20,858 nucleotides of DNA from a virus. The stretch spans positions 12,004 through 32,861 of IMG/VR virus record IMGVR_UViG_3300037847_007803. One strand, given 5' to 3'. Positions 9,603-20,695 of this stretch are shown piece after piece. The translations under genes were made by a program, and so were the position numbers. A model generated the notes under the pieces. It had not been told where the DNA came from, did no database searches, and was given only the letters and a program-made list of their open reading frames with translations. How positions within the stretch are numbered: the stretch's first letter is position 1; each line of letters begins with the position of its first letter.

Positions 9603-9968
9603 TTATTTACTATTCATTAAACCCATAATTTGATCCATACTAACATTACCAGCTGGTAAGGTACCATTAGCTGAAGTTGTGTCCATAGGACCATTGACTT
9701 GTAAAGGCACGTCAGCTGATGTAGCTGATAAAGTACCATTAGCTCCCGGCATCATTCCATTTAAAACATTCATCATATTCTCTCTTAATTCTTTTTTCTT
9801 TCCATCTGTTAATGGTTTTTGTTGTTCGAATTGAGGAGTTGTTGATTTTTTAGTCTCAACTATTGTTTTTGGAACTTTAACTGCCTCAAGAAGTATATCT
9901 TTCATTTCTTCTTGTATAGCCTCTTTTACGGCTTCTTTAATTATTTTTTTCAATTGACTTATTTTCAT
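9603..9968 (-). CDS. small protein with basic amphipathic N-terminal helix, function unknown
   Basis: A 121-aa protein inside the baseplate operon. Residues 1-30 (beginning MKISQLKKIIKEAVKEAIQE) form a Lys/Glu-rich amphipathic helix of a kind often seen at the N-terminus of small T4-like phage proteins. The middle is polar and low in hydrophobics. Residues 61-73 contain a Met-rich helix (ENMMNVLNGMMPG) and 77-106 carry two near-copies of a short unit (ANGTLSA and ANGTLPA). Another Met-rich helix ends the protein. No catalytic motif is visible. Unlike most genes of this operon it has its own 30-nt upstream gap containing an ATATTTATAA motif 13 nt before the ATG, so it may head a separate late transcript. 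Role unknown; assembly factor or minor virion protein are possibilities. Confidence 0.8.
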   Translation of the reverse strand: MKISQLKKIIKEAVKEAIQEEMKDILLEAVKVPKTIVETKKSTTPQFEQQKPLTDGKKKELRENMMNVLNGMMPGANGTLSATSADVPLQVNGPMDTTSANGTLPAGNVSMDQIMGLMNSK

Positions 9969-9981
9969 AATTATTGATTTA

Positions 9982-9991
9982 TTATAAATAT
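9982..9991 (-). promoter_or_regulatory. ATATTTATAA motif, candidate late promoter
   Basis: The minus strand reads ATATTTATAA, ending 13 nt before the ATG at 9968, in the short gap after the 562-aa gene. The same decamer occurs at 13361, 16562 and 19056/19060, always between genes. Its reverse complement contains TATAAATA, the T4 late promoter core, but in that orientation it points away from the gene. Promoter function is inferred. Confidence 0.45.
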
Positions 9992-11687: not shown

Positions 11688-13000
11688 TATGATATTTTTA
11701 TAGTTTTTGAGGTATAAGTATCAATATTATCTAAAATAGATTGAATTTGAACATTAACATTATCAGCAGCACCTTGTGTACGTATTAGTTTTGGCTCCAA
11801 ACTAAGATTATTAACTAATATCTTCATTTCTTGTAAAAGAAATTTTAAATCTGTTATAAATTTATTACCTAGTATGACACCCTCACTTGAATTAATATTA
11901 CCTATATTAACTCTTTTTCCAGTTAAGTTTATTTCACCGTTTCTTGTAAATAAACCAATATCATTAATTGACGAAAGTGCTATATTATCATTTGAATCAA
12001 TTATTACGTTATCCTTACTTGCATTAACAACTATTCTTTCTGAAGAAATTATTGCTTGACTACCACTATAGGTGGAAATACTTCTTGGTTCATTTGTTAT
12101 TGCTGGATATGAATTAAAATTAGTAGTTAAAGGTATAGTTTGTGTACTAGTTAAGTAGATAGAAGAAGGATCTTCATTTATATTTTCAACCATGGGTATA
12201 TAACCTGGTTCATCTGTTAGTAAATTACCATTTCTTAAAATTAATATTGGATCACCATTATTACCTTGTGTTGACCAATTATTCCTTGAATAAAATTCTT
12301 TATTTACATTTGTACCAGGTGAAACATTAAGTTCATCTGGTTCAAAAGTTATTTTAGATTTTGTAGTACTTCCTAATCTAATAGAATTTCCAAATCTACC
12401 TTCAAAAATTACATCCCCTGCAAATGATAATAATGGTCTAATATTACTTTTTGGTTCAAAGCTTCCCCCAATTAAAGGAGAGTTATAATTATATTCTACT
12501 TGTTCAGTACTTCCTCTAATTATTTGTCCTTCTTCTATTTCTTCATAGGTTTTTCTTTGTGAAGGTTGAGTTGTTTTAACACCTGCTGTTAGTGTATCTG
12601 GAATAGCGTTTAGATTTGGCGTGTTCCAAATTGAAATAGGAGGCAAATAATAATAAGATTTACTTTCAATTCCACTATTAATATTTTGATTTGGTAAGAA
12701 AAATGCAACAACTAATTCATTTACTACGGGGTAGTTTTTTATATTAGGAAATAAAGGTCTTGCAAAAGGTTCTCCATTTTTAACATTAGGACCTGGTTTA
12801 ATTTCATCATAAAGAATTGTACCAATACCATTCCATGCCCCATACTGTTCAAATTTAGGGTGGGTTTCATCTAAAATAATATCCGTAACTCTTACAGATA
12901 TCATATTATCCCCTAATCCACTAATAAGACCAATTAAATTAGATTGGTCATTACCACCAGAAGTTACTTGGTTATTTACACTTGTAAATCCGTATGACAT
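11687..13000 (-). CDS. gp5-like baseplate central spike / hub protein without lysozyme domain
   Basis: A 437-aa protein. Residues about 32-105 look like the gp5/VgrG OB-fold: ISVRVTDIILDETHPKF at 34-50, a GIGTILYDEI strand and a PVVNELVVAFFLP strand at 91-103. At 195-211 there is the typical GDVIFEGRFGNSIRLGS segment seen in gp5-like proteins of marine T4-like phages. Residues 310-370 show alternating beta repeats (VVNASKDNVIIDSNDNIALS, then INLTGKRVNIG) expected for the trimeric beta-helical needle. T4 gp5 is 575 aa and carries a lysozyme domain between OB-fold and needle; nothing here resembles it, so this spike probably only pierces. A C-terminal helix (379-398) extends past the needle region. 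One-base overlaps link it to both neighbouring genes. Confidence 0.88.
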   Translation of the reverse strand: MSYGFTSVNNQVTSGGNDQSNLIGLISGLGDNMISVRVTDIILDETHPKFEQYGAWNGIGTILYDEIKPGPNVKNGEPFARPLFPNIKNYPVVNELVVAFFLPNQNINSGIESKSYYYLPPISIWNTPNLNAIPDTLTAGVKTTQPSQRKTYEEIEEGQIIRGSTEQVEYNYNSPLIGGSFEPKSNIRPLLSFAGDVIFEGRFGNSIRLGSTTKSKITFEPDELNVSPGTNVNKEFYSRNNWSTQGNNGDPILILRNGNLLTDEPGYIPMVENINEDPSSIYLTSTQTIPLTTNFNSYPAITNEPRSISTYSGSQAIISSERIVVNASKDNVIIDSNDNIALSSINDIGLFTRNGEINLTGKRVNIGNINSSEGVILGNKFITDLKFLLQEMKILVNNLSLEPKLIRTQGAADNVNVQIQSILDNIDTYTSKTIKIS

Positions 13001-13350
13001 TACTCTTTTTTATTATCAAAATTAGTATTTAATTTATCTAATTCTGCCATTAATTCTTCTTTTTCTTCTTCCGTTATACCCAGTGAATTTTCACTATTAC
13101 TATTATTTAATGCACGTTGCACTATAGTAGCCATTTTAATTAATTGTTCATCGTTACGAACGCCAATTTCCATATATTCTTTAATTAAAGGGACAATTAA
13201 AGTAGCATCACCTATATCATTTATAAGTGGTTTTAACTCGGATATTAATCCTGTTATTTGTGCTTCTTTTTTCTTTTGGTTGTCGTAAATTTCACTAAGG
13301 ATATCAGAAAATTTTTTCTTTTTAAATATAATATTATCTAAATTTCCCAT
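13000..13350 (-). CDS. 116-aa helical protein, first gene of the baseplate operon
   Basis: A small all-helical protein: FSDILSEIYDNQKKKEAQIT at about 14-33, a GLISELKPLINDIGDATLIV segment at 34-53, then PLIKEYMEIGVRNDEQLIKM at 54-73 and a Glu-rich C-terminus. No transmembrane segment, Cys cluster or enzyme motif is visible. It is the first gene after the late sigma gene, behind an ATATTTATAA motif, and its stop overlaps the ATG of the spike gene by one base. Position suggests a baseplate hub or hub-assembly protein, but I recognise no family. The ATG is preceded by AATAAAAACATT, the usual A-rich leader here. Confidence 0.8.
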   Translation of the reverse strand: MGNLDNIIFKKKKFSDILSEIYDNQKKKEAQITGLISELKPLINDIGDATLIVPLIKEYMEIGVRNDEQLIKMATIVQRALNNSNSENSLGITEEEKEELMAELDKLNTNFDNKKE

Positions 13351-13360
13351 AATGTTTTTA

Positions 13361-13370
13361 TTATAAATAT
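13361..13370 (-). promoter_or_regulatory. ATATTTATAA motif between late sigma gene and structural operon
   Basis: The minus strand reads ATATTTATAA in the 35-nt gap between the sigma-factor stop and the ATG at 13350, with 10 nt from motif end to ATG. It is the only candidate promoter seen between 13350 and 9992 and would drive the spike and baseplate genes. Recognition by the adjacent gp55-like sigma is inference from position and repetition of the motif. Confidence 0.5.
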
Positions 13371-13385
13371 GGATATAGATAAGGT

Positions 13386-14087
13386 TTAGAATCTAGTATA
13401 ACCATTTTCTAGATAAAAAATATAATTAGATTTAAATATTGTATGTAGTTTATCTGCTATTTTAGTAATTTTAGGGGTTTTTACATCTACCATTTCTCTT
13501 ATGTAGATGTATAAAGCTTTTTTATTAAATACTTCTAAATCTTCTCTTTTACGAAATAATTCTAAAATAGCATCTGCTATTTGAGCATCATTTTTTTTAG
13601 GAAATAACTCAAATATATTATTAGTTACATGTTCAACAAATATATCTACATATTTATCTAAATCACTTTTAACTCTTTCATCTCCTTGATTGTAAGTATG
13701 TGTAGATGTAGGTTTAGTTAATGCTTCAACCCCAACTTTTTTTATTTTTTTATTATAATTTTTAGTATTATATAATATCAACCATCTTTTTACTATAGTA
13801 CCAAAATAAGAATACGCTTTAGCACCTCTACTAGGATCAAATAAATGCATTTTAGATAAAAGAAAAGTTATAATCTCATGTTGCAAATGTTCTAAATTTT
13901 CTACTTCCGTATGATAAAATTTAAAAGTATGAATTATATTCTGAGTTAATTTAAAGAAGGCAAAATGTATTTCCTTTTGGTAAATATCACTACGTACCTT
14001 AGAATCAGGCTCATTATTGTATCTTACTATAGCATCCTCTGTTTCTTGAGTAAAGTAATTTTTACTTTTTTTCCTTCTCTTGCGCAT
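13386..14087 (-). CDS. late RNA polymerase sigma factor, T4 gp55-like
   Basis: A 233-aa, very basic protein. Residues about 64-104 match sigma region 2 as found in phage late sigma factors: LEHLQHEIITFLLSKMHLFD, then PSRGAKAYSYFGTIVKRWLI, with the RGAKAYSYF..IVKRW core that binds core polymerase and the -10 DNA. Residues 1-10 are an RKRRKK cluster. A helical C-terminus at about 189-230 could form a DNA-contacting helix-turn-helix. T4 gp55 is 185 aa and directs host core polymerase to late promoters with gp33 and the sliding clamp; this longer version probably does the same. It starts inside the preceding gene (26-base overlap), implying translational coupling, and lies immediately upstream of the structural operon. 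A gp33-like partner was not identified. Confidence 0.88.
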   Translation of the reverse strand: MRKRRKKSKNYFTQETEDAIVRYNNEPDSKVRSDIYQKEIHFAFFKLTQNIIHTFKFYHTEVENLEHLQHEIITFLLSKMHLFDPSRGAKAYSYFGTIVKRWLILYNTKNYNKKIKKVGVEALTKPTSTHTYNQGDERVKSDLDKYVDIFVEHVTNNIFELFPKKNDAQIADAILELFRKREDLEVFNKKALYIYIREMVDVKTPKITKIADKLHTIFKSNYIFYLENGYTRF

Positions 14088-15459: not shown

Positions 15460-15660
15460 TTATCTGATAGGATTTTGTTCATCCGCAGAAAAAGGCTCTC
15501 TTTCAATTATACCCTTAATATCTTCCATTATATCCTGAGCCTTATTAAGTCCCTTTCTATATGTTTCTACGGGTTCCTGAGTGTTTACAATTCTATGTAA
15601 GTTAAGTAATGTGCTATCTAAAGCCTCTATTTTTCTATATAGTAAATTTCTATTTCTCAT
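15460..15660 (-). CDS. 66-aa helical protein, function unknown
   Basis: A small charged helical protein: YRKIEALDSTLLNLHRIVNT at about 8-27, then EPVETYRKGLNKAQDIMEDI at 29-48 with a Glu-rich end. It is likely a two-helix hairpin or dimeric coiled coil. It is the first gene behind the promoter at 15744-15774 and is followed after 5 nt by the Cys-rich gene, so it heads the operon that runs to the late sigma gene. No family recognised. The AT-only leader AATAAAGTTTATAAAAT precedes the ATG. Confidence 0.75.
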   Translation of the reverse strand: MRNRNLLYRKIEALDSTLLNLHRIVNTQEPVETYRKGLNKAQDIMEDIKGIIEREPFSADEQNPIR

Positions 15661-15743: not shown

Positions 15744-15774
15744 TAAATATACGAGAAGAAAGGAGGTATTCCAA
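15744..15774 (-). promoter_or_regulatory. promoter, TTGG-N19-TATATTTA
   Basis: On the minus strand TTGG (15774-15771) is followed after exactly 19 nt by TATATTTA (15751-15744), with CTCG just before the -7 box. This is close to the Bacteroidota housekeeping consensus (TTTG, TAnnTTTG). It sits in a 122-nt gap between the stop at 15783 and the ATG at 15660, giving a leader of about 75 nt. It should drive the genes from 15660 down to the sigma factor. Confidence 0.75.
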
Positions 15775-15782
15775 GTTATTTT

Positions 15783-16208
15783 TTAAATTCTTCTTACTAT
15801 TTCTTGAATATCATAAAGATGAGCACACTTTTCATATTCTTCAACCCCCTCGAAATATTTTATAGACATATCTAGAGCATTAAAAAGTAATTTAGGGTCA
15901 AAATTTATTATAGCATTTACATCATCATGATGGGATAAATCTATTTCATTAATGTATTCCCAAGATTTATTAAAAATAGAATATTCAGAAGCTTCTTTTG
16001 TTGTATTTTGGTTAAAACTAGGTTTTTCATGTTTTAAAAATTTTTCTAGTTTATCATGAAATACTTGGTGGTTTTGAATTAATTTTACGAACATCCCCAG
16101 TTTAGCAACTGGTCCTTCCATAAATTGTCTAATTTTCTTTTTTGTTTTTTCATCTGTAATTTCCTTACCATCAACAAACAAATTAAAAATCTTATTCTTA
16201 TCTATCAT
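15783..16208 (-). CDS. 141-aa protein with UVR-like C-terminal helix pair, function unknown
   Basis: A charged helical protein. Residues 1-60 contain helices with MEGPVAKLGMFVKLIQNHQV, 61-95 are polar, and the C-terminal 100-141 has FDPKLLFNALDMSIKYFEGV followed by EEYEKCAHLYDIQEIVRRI. That last stretch resembles the UVR/helical-hairpin motif of UvrB and UvrC (pattern E-x-Y-E-x-A/C-x-x-x-x-D-x-I), a protein-interaction module, but the match is short. Its ATG overlaps the stop of the nuclease-like gene by 4 bases (ATGA), so the two are probably translated together. It is the last gene before the promoter at 15744. Function unknown. Confidence 0.82.
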   Translation of the reverse strand: MIDKNKIFNLFVDGKEITDEKTKKKIRQFMEGPVAKLGMFVKLIQNHQVFHDKLEKFLKHEKPSFNQNTTKEASEYSIFNKSWEYINEIDLSHHDDVNAIINFDPKLLFNALDMSIKYFEGVEEYEKCAHLYDIQEIVRRI

Positions 16209-16549
16209 CTTTTACCACCATTATATTGTACAGCATGTCCTTCTGTAATTAATAAATCATTTAATTTAACATCACCAAAAAATATCTCTCCTAAACATCT
16301 ACCAAATTTCCCAACTCCCTGTGATTGTAAAATAAAAGTATTTTTATGTTTTTTAAACATATCAACAACAAATTGTTTGGCAGCTAAACCTCTAGCTTTT
16401 TCTTCCAAATCTCTAGTACGAGATTCTGGTGTGTTAATACCTACTAATCTAATTCTTACCTTTTTCCAGGTATCGAATCCTAAATCTACTGAAGCGTCAA
16501 CAGTATCCCCATCAACAACTCTATCTAATTTTGCGTTATATATGTACAT
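16205..16549 (-). CDS. staphylococcal-nuclease-like (thermonuclease) protein
   Basis: A 114-aa SNase-fold protein. RVVDGDTVDASVDLGF at 10-25 carries the Asp (D15) equivalent to SNase Asp21. KVRIRLVGINTPESR at 30-44 holds Arg34 and Glu42, matching catalytic Arg35 and Glu43. GKFGRCLGEIFFGD at 80-93 supplies Arg84, matching Arg87. The calcium ligand equivalent to Asp40 is Asn39 here (GINTPE rather than VDTPE), which may change metal use. The protein lacks an evident signal peptide, so it probably acts in the cytoplasm on DNA or RNA, for instance host nucleic acid degradation (inference). It starts 12 nt after an ATATTTATAA motif and overlaps the 141-aa gene by 4 bases. Confidence 0.9.
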   Translation of the reverse strand: MYIYNAKLDRVVDGDTVDASVDLGFDTWKKVRIRLVGINTPESRTRDLEEKARGLAAKQFVVDMFKKHKNTFILQSQGVGKFGRCLGEIFFGDVKLNDLLITEGHAVQYNGGKR

Positions 16550-16561
16550 ATGAACGTTTGG

Positions 16562-16571
16562 TTATAAATAT
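16562..16571 (-). promoter_or_regulatory. ATATTTATAA motif upstream of nuclease gene
   Basis: The minus strand reads ATATTTATAA in the 25-nt gap between the stop at 16575 and the ATG at 16549, with 12 nt from motif to ATG. It is the same decamer as at 9982, 13361 and 19056. It suggests the nuclease and the 141-aa gene can be transcribed separately, possibly late. Inferred function. Confidence 0.4.
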
Positions 16572-16574
16572 GTA

Positions 16575-16769
16575 CTATTTTTCTAATTCCGCTAATTCTT
16601 TTTCAATATCTGATTTTATTTTTTCAAGTATTTTATACTCCTTAATTATATCTTTTTTATTTGGATTATCTGGGTGGTATCTCCATACTTCATCCATAAC
16701 TGTTTGTGTAGCTAATAAATCCGCTACTAAATCTGATTTTCTATTATCTATTTTATCTTGTTCTGACAT
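16575..16769 (-). CDS. 64-aa helical protein, function unknown
   Basis: A small, highly charged protein: DKIDNRKSDLVADLLATQTV at 5-24, a WRYHPDNPNKKDII linker, then an EYKILEKIKSDIEKELAELE coiled-coil helix at 44-63. No motif of known function. Its ATG lies one base after the TAA of the T5orf172 gene (TAAAATG), so it is translationally coupled to that operon. The opposite-strand open frame at 16531-16794 is a shadow of it. Function unknown. Confidence 0.75.
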   Translation of the reverse strand: MSEQDKIDNRKSDLVADLLATQTVMDEVWRYHPDNPNKKDIIKEYKILEKIKSDIEKELAELEK

Positions 16770-16770
16770 T

Positions 16771-17247
16771 TTATTTATATTTATTTCCTATTAAACTAAT
16801 TGCTTGTTTTGCTTCTTCCAAACTGATTTGGAAAAATTCTTTTTGCATATTTACTCTATAACTTTCTAATTTATGGTGAACTTCCCTTTCAATTGTTTCT
16901 CCATTAAAACATTTATAAGCCCATTCTACTTTATAAGGTAAGGCAACACCTGTAGCAGAGGATATTTGTTTAGCCCTCTCATCAGGTGTTTTTTTAGTAT
17001 AACCTATTTTTAATAAATCAGGGGTAGTGGGATTTGATAAAACATACACCCACTGATCTCCTTCTCCTTTATCAGAATATAAACCTATTTTTTTAGCCGT
17101 ATAATATGTAATATCTTCCCATCCTTCACCTTTGGAGCTAGGGGTTAAAGTAAAATATTTAGCAAATTCTACTCCTTTATTACCATAATTTTCTTTTAAT
17201 GGTATATACCCCTTAGCTTCCTCAACTGAAATTCTAGTTAAACTCAT
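16771..17247 (-). CDS. T5orf172 / GIY-YIG-like protein
   Basis: A 158-aa protein. Residues 67-145 match the T5orf172 branch of the GIY-YIG superfamily: WVYVLSNPTTPDLLKIGYTK at 66-85 (Tyr68 and the KIGYT strand correspond to the two Tyr signature strands), DERAKQIS at 89-96 with the conserved Arg91, then GETIEREVHHKLESYRV at 116-132 with Glu122 in the metal-binding position, and KEFFQI at 136-141. Residues 1-60 are a variable N-terminal part. Such proteins occur widely in phages and are presumed nucleases; a homing role is possible, but it sits in an ordinary operon, not inside an interrupted gene. Its ATG overlaps the DUF932 stop by one base (TAATG). Confidence 0.87.
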   Translation of the reverse strand: MSLTRISVEEAKGYIPLKENYGNKGVEFAKYFTLTPSSKGEGWEDITYYTAKKIGLYSDKGEGDQWVYVLSNPTTPDLLKIGYTKKTPDERAKQISSATGVALPYKVEWAYKCFNGETIEREVHHKLESYRVNMQKEFFQISLEEAKQAISLIGNKYK

Positions 17248-18131
17248 TATGCATTTATGTATTGAAGTGCAACATCAAACATCTTACTATTCAAATCCAT
17301 ATCTTGTTTAAAGTTTTTAATCTGTCTAGCTTTTCTATGCTTAGTACCTACTGTATATTCAAAATCACCTTCAATAATTTTTTCCTGAATAGTATTAAAT
17401 ACACTCCATAAATCATCACCTTTATCTTCAGGTCTAACTGGAGTAATAAACTCATCCATATCAATAGTAATTCTTCTTAATTCATCTTCTGGGAATCTAA
17501 CTGCTAACATATCTTTAGCAAATTTAAGAATTGACTTTTGGTTCATTTTAGTATCAATCATATTATTCATTGATTCTACTGTTAATGGTAATCTTTCCAC
17601 CATTTCAGTAATTTGTTTTTGTAACTCTTCAAAATCATAACCCATATGTCTAATTGCTACTTTTTCAAATTCATTAGTAGAAATAACTAAACCATTTTCA
17701 CAAACCATTCTAAATAAACCAGCAGTAAAGGTAAATGCATTTTTACCATCATGTGAATTAGTTAATAATATTTGTGGAAAAACAGTATCAATTGGGTTTT
17801 TCTTAGCAAACGTACCATCAGTTCTTCTATAACCCGTAGGAGAAGTAATTGATTCTCTAATATTATTAGGCATTTGATTAATTACAATATCATCATTTCT
17901 AAATACTACAAGGTGTTTTTGATAACCTATAGTATCTACTTTTCTAGCTTTAACTTCTTTAGCATCTATTACATTCCATCCTAGTAATTGCATATCATCA
18001 ATTAACTTATCAGTTGGAATATGTGAATACTTACTTGAAACCTCAGGAGAGGGTTTTGTTGAGAATATACTTGGAGCGATTTCTCTTAACTCATCTTTAC
18101 TTAAATATTTACTTGATTTTAAATCTAACAT
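17247..18131 (-). CDS. DUF932 domain protein
   Basis: A 294-aa protein with the DUF932 signature at about 124-149: LTNSHDGKNAFTFTAGLFRM followed by VCENGLV. A C-terminal DDLWSVFNTIQEKIIEGDF segment (239-257) and a Lys/Arg-rich HRKARQIKNFKQD segment (265-277) also fit the family. DUF932 proteins are common in phages and plasmids; their biochemical role is not settled, so none is assigned. The ATG at 18131 follows the recurrent AAATAAAAGTT leader, about 35 nt downstream of the promoter at 18166-18196, making this the first gene of an operon with T5orf172 and the 64-aa gene. Confidence 0.92.
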   Translation of the reverse strand: MLDLKSSKYLSKDELREIAPSIFSTKPSPEVSSKYSHIPTDKLIDDMQLLGWNVIDAKEVKARKVDTIGYQKHLVVFRNDDIVINQMPNNIRESITSPTGYRRTDGTFAKKNPIDTVFPQILLTNSHDGKNAFTFTAGLFRMVCENGLVISTNEFEKVAIRHMGYDFEELQKQITEMVERLPLTVESMNNMIDTKMNQKSILKFAKDMLAVRFPEDELRRITIDMDEFITPVRPEDKGDDLWSVFNTIQEKIIEGDFEYTVGTKHRKARQIKNFKQDMDLNSKMFDVALQYINA

Positions 18132-18165
18132 AACTTTTATTTATTATTTAATTATTAATATGATG

Positions 18166-18196
18166 TGAATATACGAAAGGAAGCCTGGGTAGCCAA
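18166..18196 (-). promoter_or_regulatory. promoter, TTGG-N19-TATATTCA
   Basis: Minus strand: TTGG (18196-18193), 19 nt, TATATTCA (18173-18166), with CTTTCG just before the -7 box. It matches the promoter at 18636 nearly base for base over TTGGCTACCCAGG and CTTTCGTATATT. It drives the DUF932 operon. The -33 box lies inside the hairpin at 18178-18203. Confidence 0.78.
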
Positions 18197-18203
18197 GCTT
18201 CCT
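18178..18203. repeat. inverted repeat overlapping promoter (copy 1)
   Basis: AGGAAGC and GCTTCCT form a 7-bp stem around an inner TGG-GTAG-CCA hairpin, separated by a single C/A mismatch. A related element occurs at 18652-18672 with the same core (CTGGGTAGCCAA) but different outer arms (ATCC/GGAT), suggesting covariation. On the minus strand it is followed only by TTT, so it could be a weak terminator of the small gene ending at 18216, or a DNA operator overlapping the -33 box. Confidence 0.5.
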
Positions 18204-18215
18204 GTGCAGTACTTT

Positions 18216-18326
18216 TTAATAAAATACCCAAAGTGAAAAATAAAATAAATAGAATACTAACGCTATAAATAAAAATCCCGTTATCATATCTATTTTTTCT
18301 TCATATTTTTTAAAAAACTTTCTCAT
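18216..18326 (-). CDS. 36-aa single-span membrane protein
   Basis: A short open frame with a good start: AAAATAAAGGTTATG, the same context as the gene just upstream. The protein begins MRKFFKKYEEKIDMITGFLF and continues with a hydrophobic helix (IALVFYLFYFSLWVFY) to the stop. A basic N-terminus followed by one transmembrane helix fits a small inner-membrane protein. It starts 5 nt after the stop of the 92-aa gene and is followed by the hairpin at 18178-18203. Function unknown; many phages encode such proteins in early operons. Confidence 0.68.
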   Translation of the reverse strand: MRKFFKKYEEKIDMITGFLFIALVFYLFYFSLWVFY

Positions 18327-18331
18327 AACCT

Positions 18332-18610
18332 TTATTTTTTAATTAATAAACTTGGTGAAACTGTATACATATCAAATCTATCACTTGTAGAAACTACTTT
18401 AATATTTTTATTATTAATTTTACTAATCCTAAATGTTTTATTAGGATCCATTTTTTTATGATTAATACTTACAATATCACCTACTTTAAATTCTGATTTA
18501 ATATCGTAGTTTATTTCTGATCTACGAATTTCAACTTGTCTTCTAATATTACTAATTTCTGATTGATTTGAATTTTTAATGAATTCTAACACTTGATCTA
18601 AATTTGACAT
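18332..18610 (-). CDS. 92-aa small protein with KOW/SH3-like fold
   Basis: Residues 1-36 form a helix (SNLDQVLEFIKNSNQSEISN start). Residues 39-92 have the strand pattern of a small SH3/KOW-type barrel: EFKVGDIVSINHKKMDPNKT at 40-59, then FRISKINNKNIKVVS and a C-terminal YTVSPSLLIKK strand. The V-G-D-x-V turn followed by K-x-x-x-I-x-x-I is characteristic of such barrels, which often bind nucleic acid or protein. The ATG follows AATAATAAAGGTT and lies about 25 nt downstream of the promoter at 18636-18666. It is the first gene of a two-gene unit with the 36-aa membrane protein. Function unknown. Confidence 0.8.
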   Translation of the reverse strand: MSNLDQVLEFIKNSNQSEISNIRRQVEIRRSEINYDIKSEFKVGDIVSINHKKMDPNKTFRISKINNKNIKVVSTSDRFDMYTVSPSLLIKK

Positions 18611-18635
18611 AACCTTTATTATTATTATTATGCCG

Positions 18636-18666
18636 TAAATATACGAAAGATATCCTGGGTAGCCAA
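18636..18666 (-). promoter_or_regulatory. promoter, TTGG-N19-TATATTTA
   Basis: Minus strand: TTGG (18666-18663), 19 nt, TATATTTA (18643-18636), with CTTTCG before the -7 box. Upstream, CTGCGCA is matched by CTGCACA at the 18166 promoter. It lies in the 75-nt gap between the stop at 18686 and the ATG at 18610 and drives the 92-aa and 36-aa genes. Confidence 0.78.
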
Positions 18667-18672
18667 ATGGAT
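18652..18672. repeat. inverted repeat overlapping promoter (copy 2)
   Basis: ATCC-TGG-GTAG-CCA-AAT-GGAT: a hairpin with the same inner TGG/CCA stem and GTAG loop as at 18178-18203 but different outer arms and a three-base bulge. It lies between the stop of the 117-aa gene and the -7 box of the promoter at 18636, overlapping its -33 box. Confidence 0.45.
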
Positions 18673-18685
18673 GCGCAGGGAAATT

Positions 18686-19039
18686 TTAAGAAATTGTTAA
18701 TTCCAAATCACCCGTACCTCTTAACATTGAAGAACCTGCTGCTATTGTAGAAGTTGGCGCAAATTGAAGGGTTGCTATTGTATTAGGTTGTAAAACAACA
18801 GACCACTTATAAGAAGAAGTGACTAAAGTTGAGGAATCGATTCCACTAAAAGAACTAAAAGTACCTACTGCATTCGTAGTTGAACTACCCGAATAGTTAC
18901 CATCTGCATTTCTAACTTGTTCCATTGTAAAATAAACAGAACCCGTTGAAGAGTTTCCAAAAAGAAAAGTTGTAGCACCAGAAATTTCTTCCGTCGCTAC
19001 TCCTGCTCCATATAATTGATCTGATGTATAAGTTGCCAT
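18686..19039 (-). CDS. 117-aa Ser/Thr-rich beta protein, probable virion component
   Basis: The composition (Ser, Thr, Gly, Ala; hardly any Lys or Arg; no Cys) matches the structural proteins at the left of the window rather than the neighbouring charged accessory proteins. It begins MATYTSDQLYGAGVATEEIS and ends with beta strands around LQPNTIATLQFAPTSTI and GDLELTIS. No domain is recognised. It is a single gene between a divergent plus-strand gene and the 92-aa gene's promoter. A candidate late motif (ATATTTATAA, 19060-19069) lies 20 nt upstream of the ATG, and AAATAAATT precedes it. A decoration, fibre or tail-tip protein is plausible; not shown by homology. Confidence 0.78.
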   Translation of the reverse strand: MATYTSDQLYGAGVATEEISGATTFLFGNSSTGSVYFTMEQVRNADGNYSGSSTTNAVGTFSSFSGIDSSTLVTSSYKWSVVLQPNTIATLQFAPTSTIAAGSSMLRGTGDLELTIS

Positions 19040-19055
19040 AATTTATTTAATTATT

Positions 19056-19069
19056 ATATTTATAAATAT
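19056..19069. promoter_or_regulatory. palindromic ATATTTATAAATAT, divergent candidate promoter
   Basis: A perfect 14-bp palindrome in the 28-nt gap between divergent starts at 19039 (minus) and 19068 (plus). Each strand carries the ATATTTATAA decamer found upstream of three other genes. For the minus gene it ends 20 nt before the ATG; for the plus gene it runs into the ATG, so that transcript would be leaderless. Promoter role inferred. Confidence 0.42.
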
Positions 19070-19385
19070 GAGAAAGCTCCTTATTATTTTATTATTACCT
19101 ACTTTTTTATTTTTCCAAGATTTTAAAGAAAAAGATAAACAACTTCATTTTGCAGCAGGGATAGTTTTTGGTTCTTTAGGGTATGATTTTGTTTATCAAA
19201 GAACAAAAGATAAAAAGAAGGCTATTTTAGGAGGTATTGCTTTTTCTACATTAGCGGGGTTAGCTAAGGAATTAGCGGATTCAGAAATGTATGAACAAAA
19301 ATTTGATAAAAAGGATTTAATGGCTACTTCAATTGGTGGTTTTACAGTTAGTTTAACTATACCTTTATTTAATAAAAAGAAGTAA
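19068..19385 (+). CDS. YfiM/DUF2279-like membrane-associated protein
   Basis: A 105-aa protein with a signal-like N-terminus (MRKLLIILLLPTFLFFQ), followed by EKDKQLHFAAGIVFGSLGYD at 21-40, a typical DK-x-LHF-x-x-G motif of YfiM/DUF2279-type proteins. Further hydrophobic segments are at 53-65 (ILGGIAFSTLAGL) and 88-101 (TSIGGFTVSLTIPL), separated by the charged KELADSEMYEQKFDKKDL. It could be an envelope protein with two or three membrane or membrane-facing helices. Function in phages is not established; a lysis or envelope-modification role would be a guess. There is no Cys for lipidation at the signal end. The ATG directly abuts a TATATTTATAA box, leaving almost no leader. Confidence 0.82.
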   Translation: MRKLLIILLLPTFLFFQDFKEKDKQLHFAAGIVFGSLGYDFVYQRTKDKKKAILGGIAFSTLAGLAKELADSEMYEQKFDKKDLMATSIGGFTVSLTIPLFNKKK

Positions 19386-19463
19386 AACGACTCTTTCTCT
19401 TTTACATCCCCACATATATAAATACGTATATATTACTTAATATAAATTATTTTAAAAAATTAT

Positions 19464-19494
19464 GTGGATTACCTCATGTATTTTCGTATATTAG
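19464..19494 (+). promoter_or_regulatory. plus-strand promoter, GTGG-N19-TATATTAG
   Basis: GTGG (19464-19467), 19 nt, TATATTAG (19487-19494) with TTTTCG before the -7 box: the same layout as the four minus-strand promoters, with one change in each box. The ATG at 19499 is only 5 nt after the -7 box, near the expected transcription start, predicting a leaderless mRNA. The gap 19386-19463 upstream is AT-rich with no gene. Confidence 0.65.
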
Positions 19495-19498
19495 TTAT

Positions 19499-19906
19499 AT
19501 GGAATTAATTTATTTTATTAGTGGTATTTTAACAGTAGGTGTTGTTTATGGTGTAGTATTATTGCGTCATGTAAAATCTTCACATACGTCGTTACTGGAG
19601 TCGAATCAACATTCCACAAATATCTCTTCTATAAGATATGCTGACATGCAAGAAAAGCTGGATAATATGACAGGGCATATGAATGAGGTAAAAGAGATTA
19701 TGGAAAAAGATTCGTATGAAAATTTAACAAAAATTAAAAAACGAATAGGTAATATGGGGGAGGATATTGCGAATATTCAGAATATTTTAAATAATGATGT
19801 TAATGCGACGGAGAAGAATTTTAACAAAGCATTTACGGAGATACAAACCATTAAAAACAATATTAAAGCGTTAGGGGCGGATCCTAATTTTTTAAATAGG
19901 TATTAA
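19499..19906 (+). CDS. membrane-anchored coiled-coil protein
   Basis: A 135-aa protein with one N-terminal transmembrane helix (residues 3-22, IYFISGILTVGVVYGVVLL) and a long polar helix. Heptad-like segments run from about 46 to 125 (RYADMQEKLDNMTGHMNEVK; later KKRIGNMGEDIANIQNILNN). It ends GADPNFLNRY. Topology is probably N-out with the coiled coil in the cytoplasm. No enzymatic motif is seen. It is alone on the plus strand behind its own promoter, which would give a leaderless transcript; the first codons ATGGAATTA are the only good start. Function unknown; it resembles in build the 100-aa protein upstream of the sigma gene. Confidence 0.82.
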   Translation: MELIYFISGILTVGVVYGVVLLRHVKSSHTSLLESNQHSTNISSIRYADMQEKLDNMTGHMNEVKEIMEKDSYENLTKIKKRIGNMGEDIANIQNILNNDVNATEKNFNKAFTEIQTIKNNIKALGADPNFLNRY

Positions 19907-19928
19907 AATATAAATATATATTTTCCTC

Positions 19929-19990
19929 GGACCCAAAAAGTTTTCGAAAGAAGACAGTTGCCATTTTATGATTTTCTATCATTTGGGTCT
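19929..19990. other. long-range inverted repeat / possible structured RNA
   Basis: GACCCAAA (19930-19937) pairs with TTTGGGTC (19982-19989), extended by a G-T pair, enclosing a TTTCGAAA palindrome (19942-19949) and an ATGAT/ATCAT hairpin (19968-19982, sharing one base with the outer stem). It lies between a gene end and the GC-rich terminator at 20002. It may be a structured 3' end or small RNA; no known family recognised. Confidence 0.35.
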
Positions 19991-19996
19991 AAATGG

Positions 19997-20020
19997 AAAA
20001 AGGCCCCCTTTTGGGGGGCC
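19997..20020 (-). terminator. GC-rich rho-independent terminator
   Basis: GGCCCCC (20002-20008) pairs with GGGGGCC (20014-20020) around a TTTTG loop, by far the most GC-rich stretch nearby. On the minus strand the stem is followed by five T (the A run 19997-20001), the usual intrinsic terminator layout, so it should end the unit carrying 20370 and 20261. On the plus strand the following TAATCTTAATATT is a poorer tract, so it may act weakly in both directions. Confidence 0.75.
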
Positions 20021-20033
20021 TAATCTTAATATT

Positions 20034-20168
20034 ATGAAACAAAAAAAATTTTCCGAATATTTAGGAGTTTATTTTAAATTAACAATAGGAATAAGTATAG
20101 TAGTTACTTGTATTTTTTCTATTTTAGCATTACTTGGGTTTGTGTTGCTTAGGGCAAATCCTTTCTGA
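20034..20168 (+). CDS. 44-aa single-span membrane protein
   Basis: The protein begins MKQKKFSEYLGVYFKLTIGI and continues with one transmembrane helix (about 17-40, SIVVTCIFSILALLGFVLL) to a short end. The same frame is open back to an ATG at 19968, but that extension crosses the terminator hairpin, so the ATG at 20034, behind AT-rich CTTAATATT, is preferred. The last 39 bases overlap the convergent minus-strand gene 20130-20261. Function unknown; the basic N-terminus suggests insertion in the inner membrane. Confidence 0.6.
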   Translation: MKQKKFSEYLGVYFKLTIGISIVVTCIFSILALLGFVLLRANPF

Positions 20169-20261
20169 TGCATAATTTTTAAGTATATCTGGGAACCATG
20201 CGTGTATGAATAATGCTAATGAAGACAACATTGCTAACCTCCAATGTTGCCAATATCCCAT
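20130..20261 (-). CDS. 43-aa protein resembling DUF6356
   Basis: The protein starts MGYWQHWRLAMLSSLALFIH and continues AWFPDILKNYASERI to a Lys-rich end. The Y-W-Q-H-x-R-x-A...H-A-x-x-P pattern is that of DUF6356-type small membrane proteins, recalled rather than searched. One hydrophobic helix spans about 9-23. Its ATG lies just after the stop of the 35-aa gene (TAATATG), suggesting coupling, and the terminator at 19997-20020 follows its stop. Its 3' end overlaps the plus-strand 44-aa gene by 39 bases. Role unknown. Confidence 0.6.
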   Translation of the reverse strand: MGYWQHWRLAMLSSLALFIHAWFPDILKNYASERICPKQHKPK

Positions 20262-20262
20262 A

Positions 20263-20370
20263 TTATTTTCTTTTAGGTGTTTCATCTTTTTTCATGTGAG
20301 CAGTAAGATTAGGATAAATTTTATATAATTCATCCATAAACCATTTATCTATTAATTTTAGTATTTTCAT
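20263..20370 (-). CDS. 35-aa small charged protein
   Basis: The protein begins MKILKLIDKWFMDELYKIYP and ends in a Lys/Glu-rich tail. It is probably one amphipathic helix followed by a basic end. The frame is open upstream to an ATG at 20418, which would add 16 residues; the inner ATG at 20370 is preferred because the extra residues are unlike the rest and an AT-rich leader precedes it. It would be the first gene after the promoter at 20665-20695, with a leader of nearly 300 nt. Function unknown. Confidence 0.5.
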   Translation of the reverse strand: MKILKLIDKWFMDELYKIYPNLTAHMKKDETPKRK

Positions 20371-20664
20371 AAAATATAAGTATATACAATCGATGGTGTA
20401 AGATCGTGTTCGAGTCATAAATATACCTACACCTTTTTTTTCACATATACACGCTATATGGACACCAACGCGCGTGGTATTATGGGGGTATGCATGCGTA
20501 CGGTATATGGTGTGGTTATAGCTATAATATATAATTCAGTGTGTAATAATAAAGTAGTAAGTACCGCGGTATAAAAGTATAAGTAATAAGTATAGGAGTA
20601 CCCGTCGCCAACTGAGTAATTACTACCGTCGTAGTCTTCTACCCATACCGCCTATTGCATCACC

Positions 20665-20695
20665 TAAATATACGAACAATAACCTACGTATCCAA
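20665..20695 (-). promoter_or_regulatory. promoter, TTGG-N19-TATATTTA
   Basis: Minus strand: TTGG (20695-20692), 19 nt, TATATTTA (20672-20665), with GTTCG before the -7 box and TTGGATACGTAGG resembling the TTGGCTACCCAGG of the 18166 and 18636 promoters. The next gene downstream starts near 20370, so the transcript would have a leader of about 290 nt or encode an RNA. Confidence 0.68.

Follow-up and report, generated by a model that had tools for sequence, protein, structure and literature searches.

A candidate pre-late promoter class with an exact 19-nt spacer in T4-like phages of marine Bacteroidota

A window of 20,858 nucleotides of viral DNA (positions 12004-32861 of the 38,697-base IMG/VR record IMGVR_UViG_3300037847_007803, contig G000) contains five similar sites with a TGG element near -33 and a TATATT box at -7. 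Here, we propose that these sites are pre-late (early or middle) promoters belonging to a T4-like phage that infects marine Bacteroidota, with the RNA polymerase and primary sigma factor of the host as their probable reader, as judged from comparison of related phage sequences. The proposed promoter combines a -33 TTGG, an exact 19-nt spacer, TTC(G) at -16 to -13, and a -7 box of the form TATATTTA, and it would stand mostly before small non-virion genes. A separate box, TATTTATA, tends to mark virion genes, and a phage sigma-like protein would more likely serve that class. The fixed spacing, the strong -33 element, and the extended -7 element of the phage promoters may make up for the absent final G of the host box, and this compensation would make them strong competitors from the moment of entry, in the manner of T4 early promoters in E. 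coli. At a sizeable minority of sites, the spacer contains a hairpin that is T-rich on its 3′ side and lies just past an upstream stop codon, and a single stretch there probably serves both as the end of one early transcript and as the start of the following one.

All five sites of the form K-TGG-N19-TATATTNR described in the sequence-only reading are present. KTGG-N19-TATATTNR has exactly these five matches in the window (Table 1), compared with an expectation of 0.29 from dinucleotide shuffles of the window, a test that is partly circular because the pattern was derived from the same five sites. The same 38.7-kb contig has one further full site outside the window (G000:37706) and a TAGG variant near G000:3316. 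The invariance of the spacer was borne out in the relatives. When TTGG to CG-TATATT was scanned in 572 kb of clade sequence at lengths of 13-25, 43 matches were found at 19 and 0 or 1 at every other length. TTGG-N17-CG-TATATT gave 60 matches in 17 of the 20 related contigs (reversed control, 1), although several contigs are close relatives and the counts are therefore partly non-independent. As a negative control, the TTGG/TATATT pattern with a spacer one base longer had 0 matches in the 20 contigs. An unbiased dyad search (4-mer/5-mer) upstream of open reading frames (ORFs), which were called mechanically, gave this architecture the top rank in nearly every phage. Among cultured phages, the closest relative found is Flavobacterium phage vB_FspM_immuto_2-6A (hereafter immuto; Immutovirus, 160 kb; host Flavobacterium sp. 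LMO8), which is 39-43% identical to the window in the DUF932 and baseplate wedge proteins and has a similar gene neighborhood. Its version, GTTG-N20-TATATT, has 29 matches versus ≤2 at other lengths. The -33 element contains TTG in most sites and is TAGG or GTGG in some, and its letters follow lineage: TTGG in the window clade and G049, TAGG/TTGG in G041, GTTG in immuto and G044, and GGAA just upstream in G009.

The two further conserved elements that had been noted between the boxes fared differently. The CG before the -7 box is part of TTCG at four window sites and of CTCG at one, and TTC(G) is general beyond the window clade. In E. coli promoters, the extended -10 element occupies this position (PMC2988021). 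TAC lies 1-2 nt past TTGG/GTGG in all five window sites; it occurs in 24/51 clade sites versus 0-3 of 35-39 in five other phages. TAC is specific to the clade, and its membership in the promoter class as a whole is therefore not supported. Nothing was found for the suggested added activator or repressor contact, and at some of the sites the additional conserved sequence of the spacer is explained by a terminator-like hairpin.

The placement of the motif is that of a promoter. The sites are intergenic (48/52 in the clade) and point in the direction of the gene that follows, whose start codon is a median of 30-38 nt away. TTCGTATAT is nearly confined to intergenic DNA (24/25 in G049 and 37/38 in G046); far from being equally common in coding sequence, the motif is nearly absent there. 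In immuto, it precedes 16 of the 33 genes in the small-gene region at 61-77 kb and 2 of the 41 virion-region genes (p 1.7e-5), whereas the late motif precedes 1/33 and 10/41, respectively (p 0.018), with the gene groups assigned by hand from the record annotation. The portal, sheath, tube, tape measure, and terminase genes of immuto have TATTTATA ~25 nt before the ATG, without a -33 element. Summed over seven phages, TATTTATA occurs 94 times in oriented intergenic regions versus 21 times for its reverse complement. Strand asymmetry served as the control because ATATTTATA reads the same backwards, which makes a reversed control useless. Since the motif stands before small non-virion genes and TATTTATA before virion genes, the motif is assigned to a pre-late class. 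Of the phage-specific early class first suggested, the association with phages and the pre-late assignment stood, while early and middle are not separable by sequence.

In several respects, the class resembles the early promoters of T4-type phages, which follow a genome-wide consensus conserved beyond that of the host, each phage having its own version (PMC2988021, PMC1524935). As in T4, RB69, and RB49, a recurrent consensus is found before non-virion genes and ORFans, co-directional and intergenic, and its conservation beyond the host consensus extends to an element immediately before the -10 box. It differs from them in its Bacteroidota-type boxes, the exact 19-nt spacer, the lack of a host-like final G, and the frequent overlap with hairpins. 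The class is also unlike the T4 middle promoter (MotA box, N11-13, TAtAAT), as the gap is 19 nt at every site; the dyad search began at 14 nt, so that MotA-like gaps of 11-13 nt were outside its range. The likeness to T4 late promoters (TATAAATA, gp55; PMC1524935, PMC2988020) belongs to the TATTTATA class: the same phages carry this virion box lacking a -33 element and a protein with a sigma domain 2, whereas the pre-late motif has a -33 box and is rare before virion genes. An extracytoplasmic function (ECF) sigma promoter (GGAAC, ~16 nt, CGT) also differs, since TTGG is followed by 17 nt to CGTA and the GGAA of G009 is 21 nt from CGTA. The open-access literature that was searched does not describe this promoter class, which is no proof of novelty.

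In the -33/-7 spacer of promoter 2, a hairpin with an 11-bp stem (minimum free energy -18.6, z -4.2) begins 12 nt after the stop codon of a 36-aa ORF, and is a candidate terminator of that ORF. Two observations count against the proposed overlap with a terminator. A strong hairpin is present at only one of the five sites (18166), where the T-run is short, and covariation at this site is modest (pairs kept 82.8% versus 79.2% shuffled, 0/500). As covariation at the DUF932 site alone was weak, an arm-swap test across sites was used, in which the 5′ and 3′ halves were exchanged among the sites of one genome. The swap weakened folding in 5/7 groups (z -4.6 to -6.8; clade sites z -6.8); G044 gave z -2.1, and G009, with five sites, showed no effect. 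Summed over seven phages, 35 of 102 intergenic terminator-like hairpins lie in a promoter spacer versus 6.0 expected, and the hairpin-bearing sites are mostly 5-30 nt 3′ of the upstream stop codon. Examples are AGAGTTGCTAGCGCAGCTCTTTTTTCGTATATT in immuto and AAGGCTTGGTAACTCAAGCCTTTTTTCGTATATT in G041. With this placement, the 5′ arm often includes the -33 box, and the T-run is directly adjacent to the -7 box. Taken as a group, a stem with a T-run after an upstream stop codon is probably an intrinsic terminator that overlaps the promoter. Strong hairpins just past stop codons, at a minority of sites in most groups, could also mean that what is conserved is chiefly a hairpin in RNA or DNA (a terminator or a processing site), with a secondary promoter role. 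We consider this highly improbable, given that the majority of sites have no hairpin but retain both boxes, the exact spacing, and a nearby start codon. A dimeric operator was considered for the TTGG/CCAA inverted repeat and rejected; a hairpin fits better because the loop length varies between sites.

The boxes were compared with those of the presumed host type. In Flavobacterium primary-sigma promoters, the -7 box is TAnnTTTG with a nearly invariant G at -5 (G-5) and a weak -33 element (PMC6847099), and the spacer of Bacteroides promoters is variable (PMC7366714). The resemblance to the Bacteroidota sigma pattern that had been suggested (primary sigma sigmaABfr/sigmaA, TTTG / TAnnTTTG; PMC6847099, PMC7366714, PMC9723704) thus holds in part: TTG near -33 and TAnnTTT at -7 agree, whereas the final G differs. 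The phages have A-5, a strong -33 element, a fixed spacer, and the added TTC(G). The partial agreement, together with a small excess near spacer 19 in Flavobacterium intergenic regions, would also suit ordinary host-type Bacteroidota promoters that happen to resemble each other within one phage. This is improbable because host TA..TTTG, enriched in 200-kb samples of two Flavobacteriaceae genomes (52 versus 16 and 37 versus 15) with broad spacing, is nearly absent in the phages, where TATATTTA or TATATT at spacer 19 takes its place, and because the full motif showed no enrichment in four bacterial genomes.

A reading by host polymerase and the pre-late assignment have to be weighed against several findings. 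Position -5 is A in 44/52 clade sites and G in 4; TA..TTTG is found in 0/79 immuto intergenic regions, which mostly have A instead; and where a candidate box was found upstream of a host tRNA gene, it was of the G form in 10/10 cases. The absent G is odd if an unmodified host sigma is the reader. A few motif sites precede virion genes, and no such class is seen in FCL-2.

The missing G-5 could mean a reader other than the host sigma, and the phages encode a candidate. The gene at 13386-14087 is the single sigma-70-family protein detected in these phages. Nine of the 15 homologues contain a Sigma70_r2 match (best E 2e-5); the window member is below the Pfam cut-off. Residues 11-111 of its AlphaFold model align with sigma domain 2 (root-mean-square deviation ~2.4-3.5, Z 8-10), while the Foldseek E-values alone are weak and a PDB sequence search with the sigma profile gave nothing. 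The protein is divergent (38-85% identity to aligned relatives) and has a C-terminal helical domain; the closest PHROGs family, phrog_11747, is listed as of unknown function. A phage-specified reader, be it this protein, some injected factor, or a polymerase modified by the phage, would explain why G-5 is absent while the spacer is strict and the -33 element strong. It also agrees with the presence of the gene in 15/23 large motif-bearing contigs versus 1/17 control contigs, which are shorter, and with the variation of the -33 element by lineage (TTGG, TAGG, GTTGC, GAGG/GGAA). Three points stand against it. The second class before virion genes, lacking a -33 element, suits a gp55-like sigma better, and early genes need a reader that is present at entry. 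Moreover, the unrelated Cellulophaga phages phiST and phi38:1, in which no homologue of the sigma-like protein was detected, share the spacing and A-5, with an excess of TTG-N20-TANNTTTA at exactly 20 (12 versus 4 reversed in phiST and 7 versus 0 reversed in phi38:1) and some spacer inverted repeats. They are unlike the pre-late class in lacking TTCG, and TATCTTTA is common in phiST. The gp55-like sigma was favored first as the reader of the pre-late class, and was lowered after the TATTTATA motif and the two Cellulophaga phages were considered. We now regard a phage-specified reader as possible but on balance unlikely, and the product of 13386-14087, with its modeled sigma domain 2 fold, as a candidate gp55-like late sigma that probably reads the TATTTATA class. 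Host RNA polymerase is the better guess for the pre-late class, given that the reader of early promoters has to be available at entry, the second class suits the sigma-like protein, and unrelated phages without that protein share the spacing and A-5; on these sequence comparisons, we favor it with moderate confidence.

More speculatively, the reader may be altered at infection in several Bacteroidota phage lineages. Such a reader would define a class that excludes G-5, with a -33 element at fixed spacing, an extended -7 element, and a core that also terminates transcription of the gene before it, so that each early gene would form an insulated unit of its own; we consider this rather unlikely. 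QueC is encoded in 8/8 of the long T4-like relatives tested (G005, G009, G011, G041, G044, G046, G049, and immuto), which suggests 7-deazaguanine DNA modification across the group. A modified guanine is one possible reason for the avoidance of G-5, but phi38:1, without QueC, has the same A.

Table 1. Positions of the proposed promoters and associated features in the window
Feature	Position	Strand	Details
Promoter 1	15744..15774	-	TTGG 15771-15774, N19, TATATT 15746-15751
Promoter 2	18166..18196	-	TTGG 18193-18196, TATATT 18168-18173; upstream of DUF932 gene 17247-18131
Hairpin (candidate terminator) AGGAAGCTTGG-CTAC-CCAGGCTTCCT	18178..18203	-	11-bp stem, 4-nt loop, within promoter 2 -33/-7 spacer, then TTCGTATATT
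36-aa predicted membrane ORF	18216..18326	-	Read directly from sequence; below ORF-list cut-off
Promoter 3	18636..18666	-	TTGG 18663-18666, TATATT 18638-18643; upstream of 92-aa gene 18332-18610
Promoter 4	19464..19494	+	GTGG 19464-19467, TATATT 19487-19492; upstream of 135-aa gene 19499-19906
Promoter 5	20665..20695	-	TTGG 20692-20695, TATATT 20667-20672; upstream of ~250-300 nt conserved non-coding sequence
Sigma-70-family protein gene	13386..14087	-	Modeled sigma domain 2 fold; candidate gp55-like late sigma
Late-type box ATATTTATAATA	13359..13370	-	20 nt before gene 13000-13350, adjoining baseplate operon
Late-type box ATATTTATAATA	9980..9991	-	Before gene 9603-9968
Late-type box ATATTTATAAAT	19058..19069	-	Before gene 18686-19039

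The window encodes a T4-type baseplate operon on the minus strand (baseplate wedge proteins), beyond which lie small genes and the genes for a DUF932, a T5orf172, and an SNase protein. The -7 box of promoter 1 is separated by ~91 nt from a 66-aa ORF at 15460-15660 and overlaps the late-type TATTTATA as well, and an identical site is present in a separate related contig, G019. Promoter 2, with a predicted transcript start at ~18161, is conserved ahead of the DUF932 gene in the majority of the ~40 relatives inspected. The folding test gave no strong hairpin at promoter 3 (z -0.6). At promoter 4, the ATG coincides with the predicted start; as the start codon is 12 nt past the first T of the -7 box, the predicted transcript is leaderless, and the same offset recurs at sites in G005 and G012. 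The conserved non-coding sequence 3′ of promoter 5 (20390-20690, minus strand, ~300 nt) is also found in the related contig G002 (L207 ~3823). It is possibly a small RNA or a structured leader.

Some observations lie beside these results. An Rfam search gave no match, and a tRNA search found none. In several relatives, the sequence before early-gene start codons recurrently has the context AAAGGTTATG. The phylum Bacteroidota is considered to lack Shine-Dalgarno sequences. In phiST (L423), a family of its own, CTGTTGT-N19-TATCTTTAT with TTGT-N4-ACAA repeats, is found at 776, 1077, 1346, and 17677 (minus strand), and one terminator-like hairpin overlaps a spacer. A scan of genome contigs yielded 120 matches with a logo that was empty beyond the query, and these were set aside as mostly chance, a Chryseobacterium/Flavobacterium insertion sequence-like leader, or phage contigs in metagenome-assembled genomes (MAGs). 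The idea that matches at contig ends mark rRNA promoters was abandoned, as an ORF is encoded downstream of them. The MAG contigs L323, L310, L280, L297, L242, L333, and L334, labeled Pelagibacter, Flavobacteriaceae, or Flavobacteriales, have copies of the motif (more than one in some of them) and resemble phage contigs that were binned together with hosts.

The analysis yields a promoter map with two classes, pre-late and late, for common, mostly uncultured marine T4-like phages that have a cultured member in immuto. It shows how a T4-type program may fit the unusual Bacteroidota polymerase, and raises the question of what roles the -33 element, the spacing, and TTC play without G-5. The compact promoters, some with a built-in terminator, are candidate genetic parts for laboratory strains of Flavobacterium.

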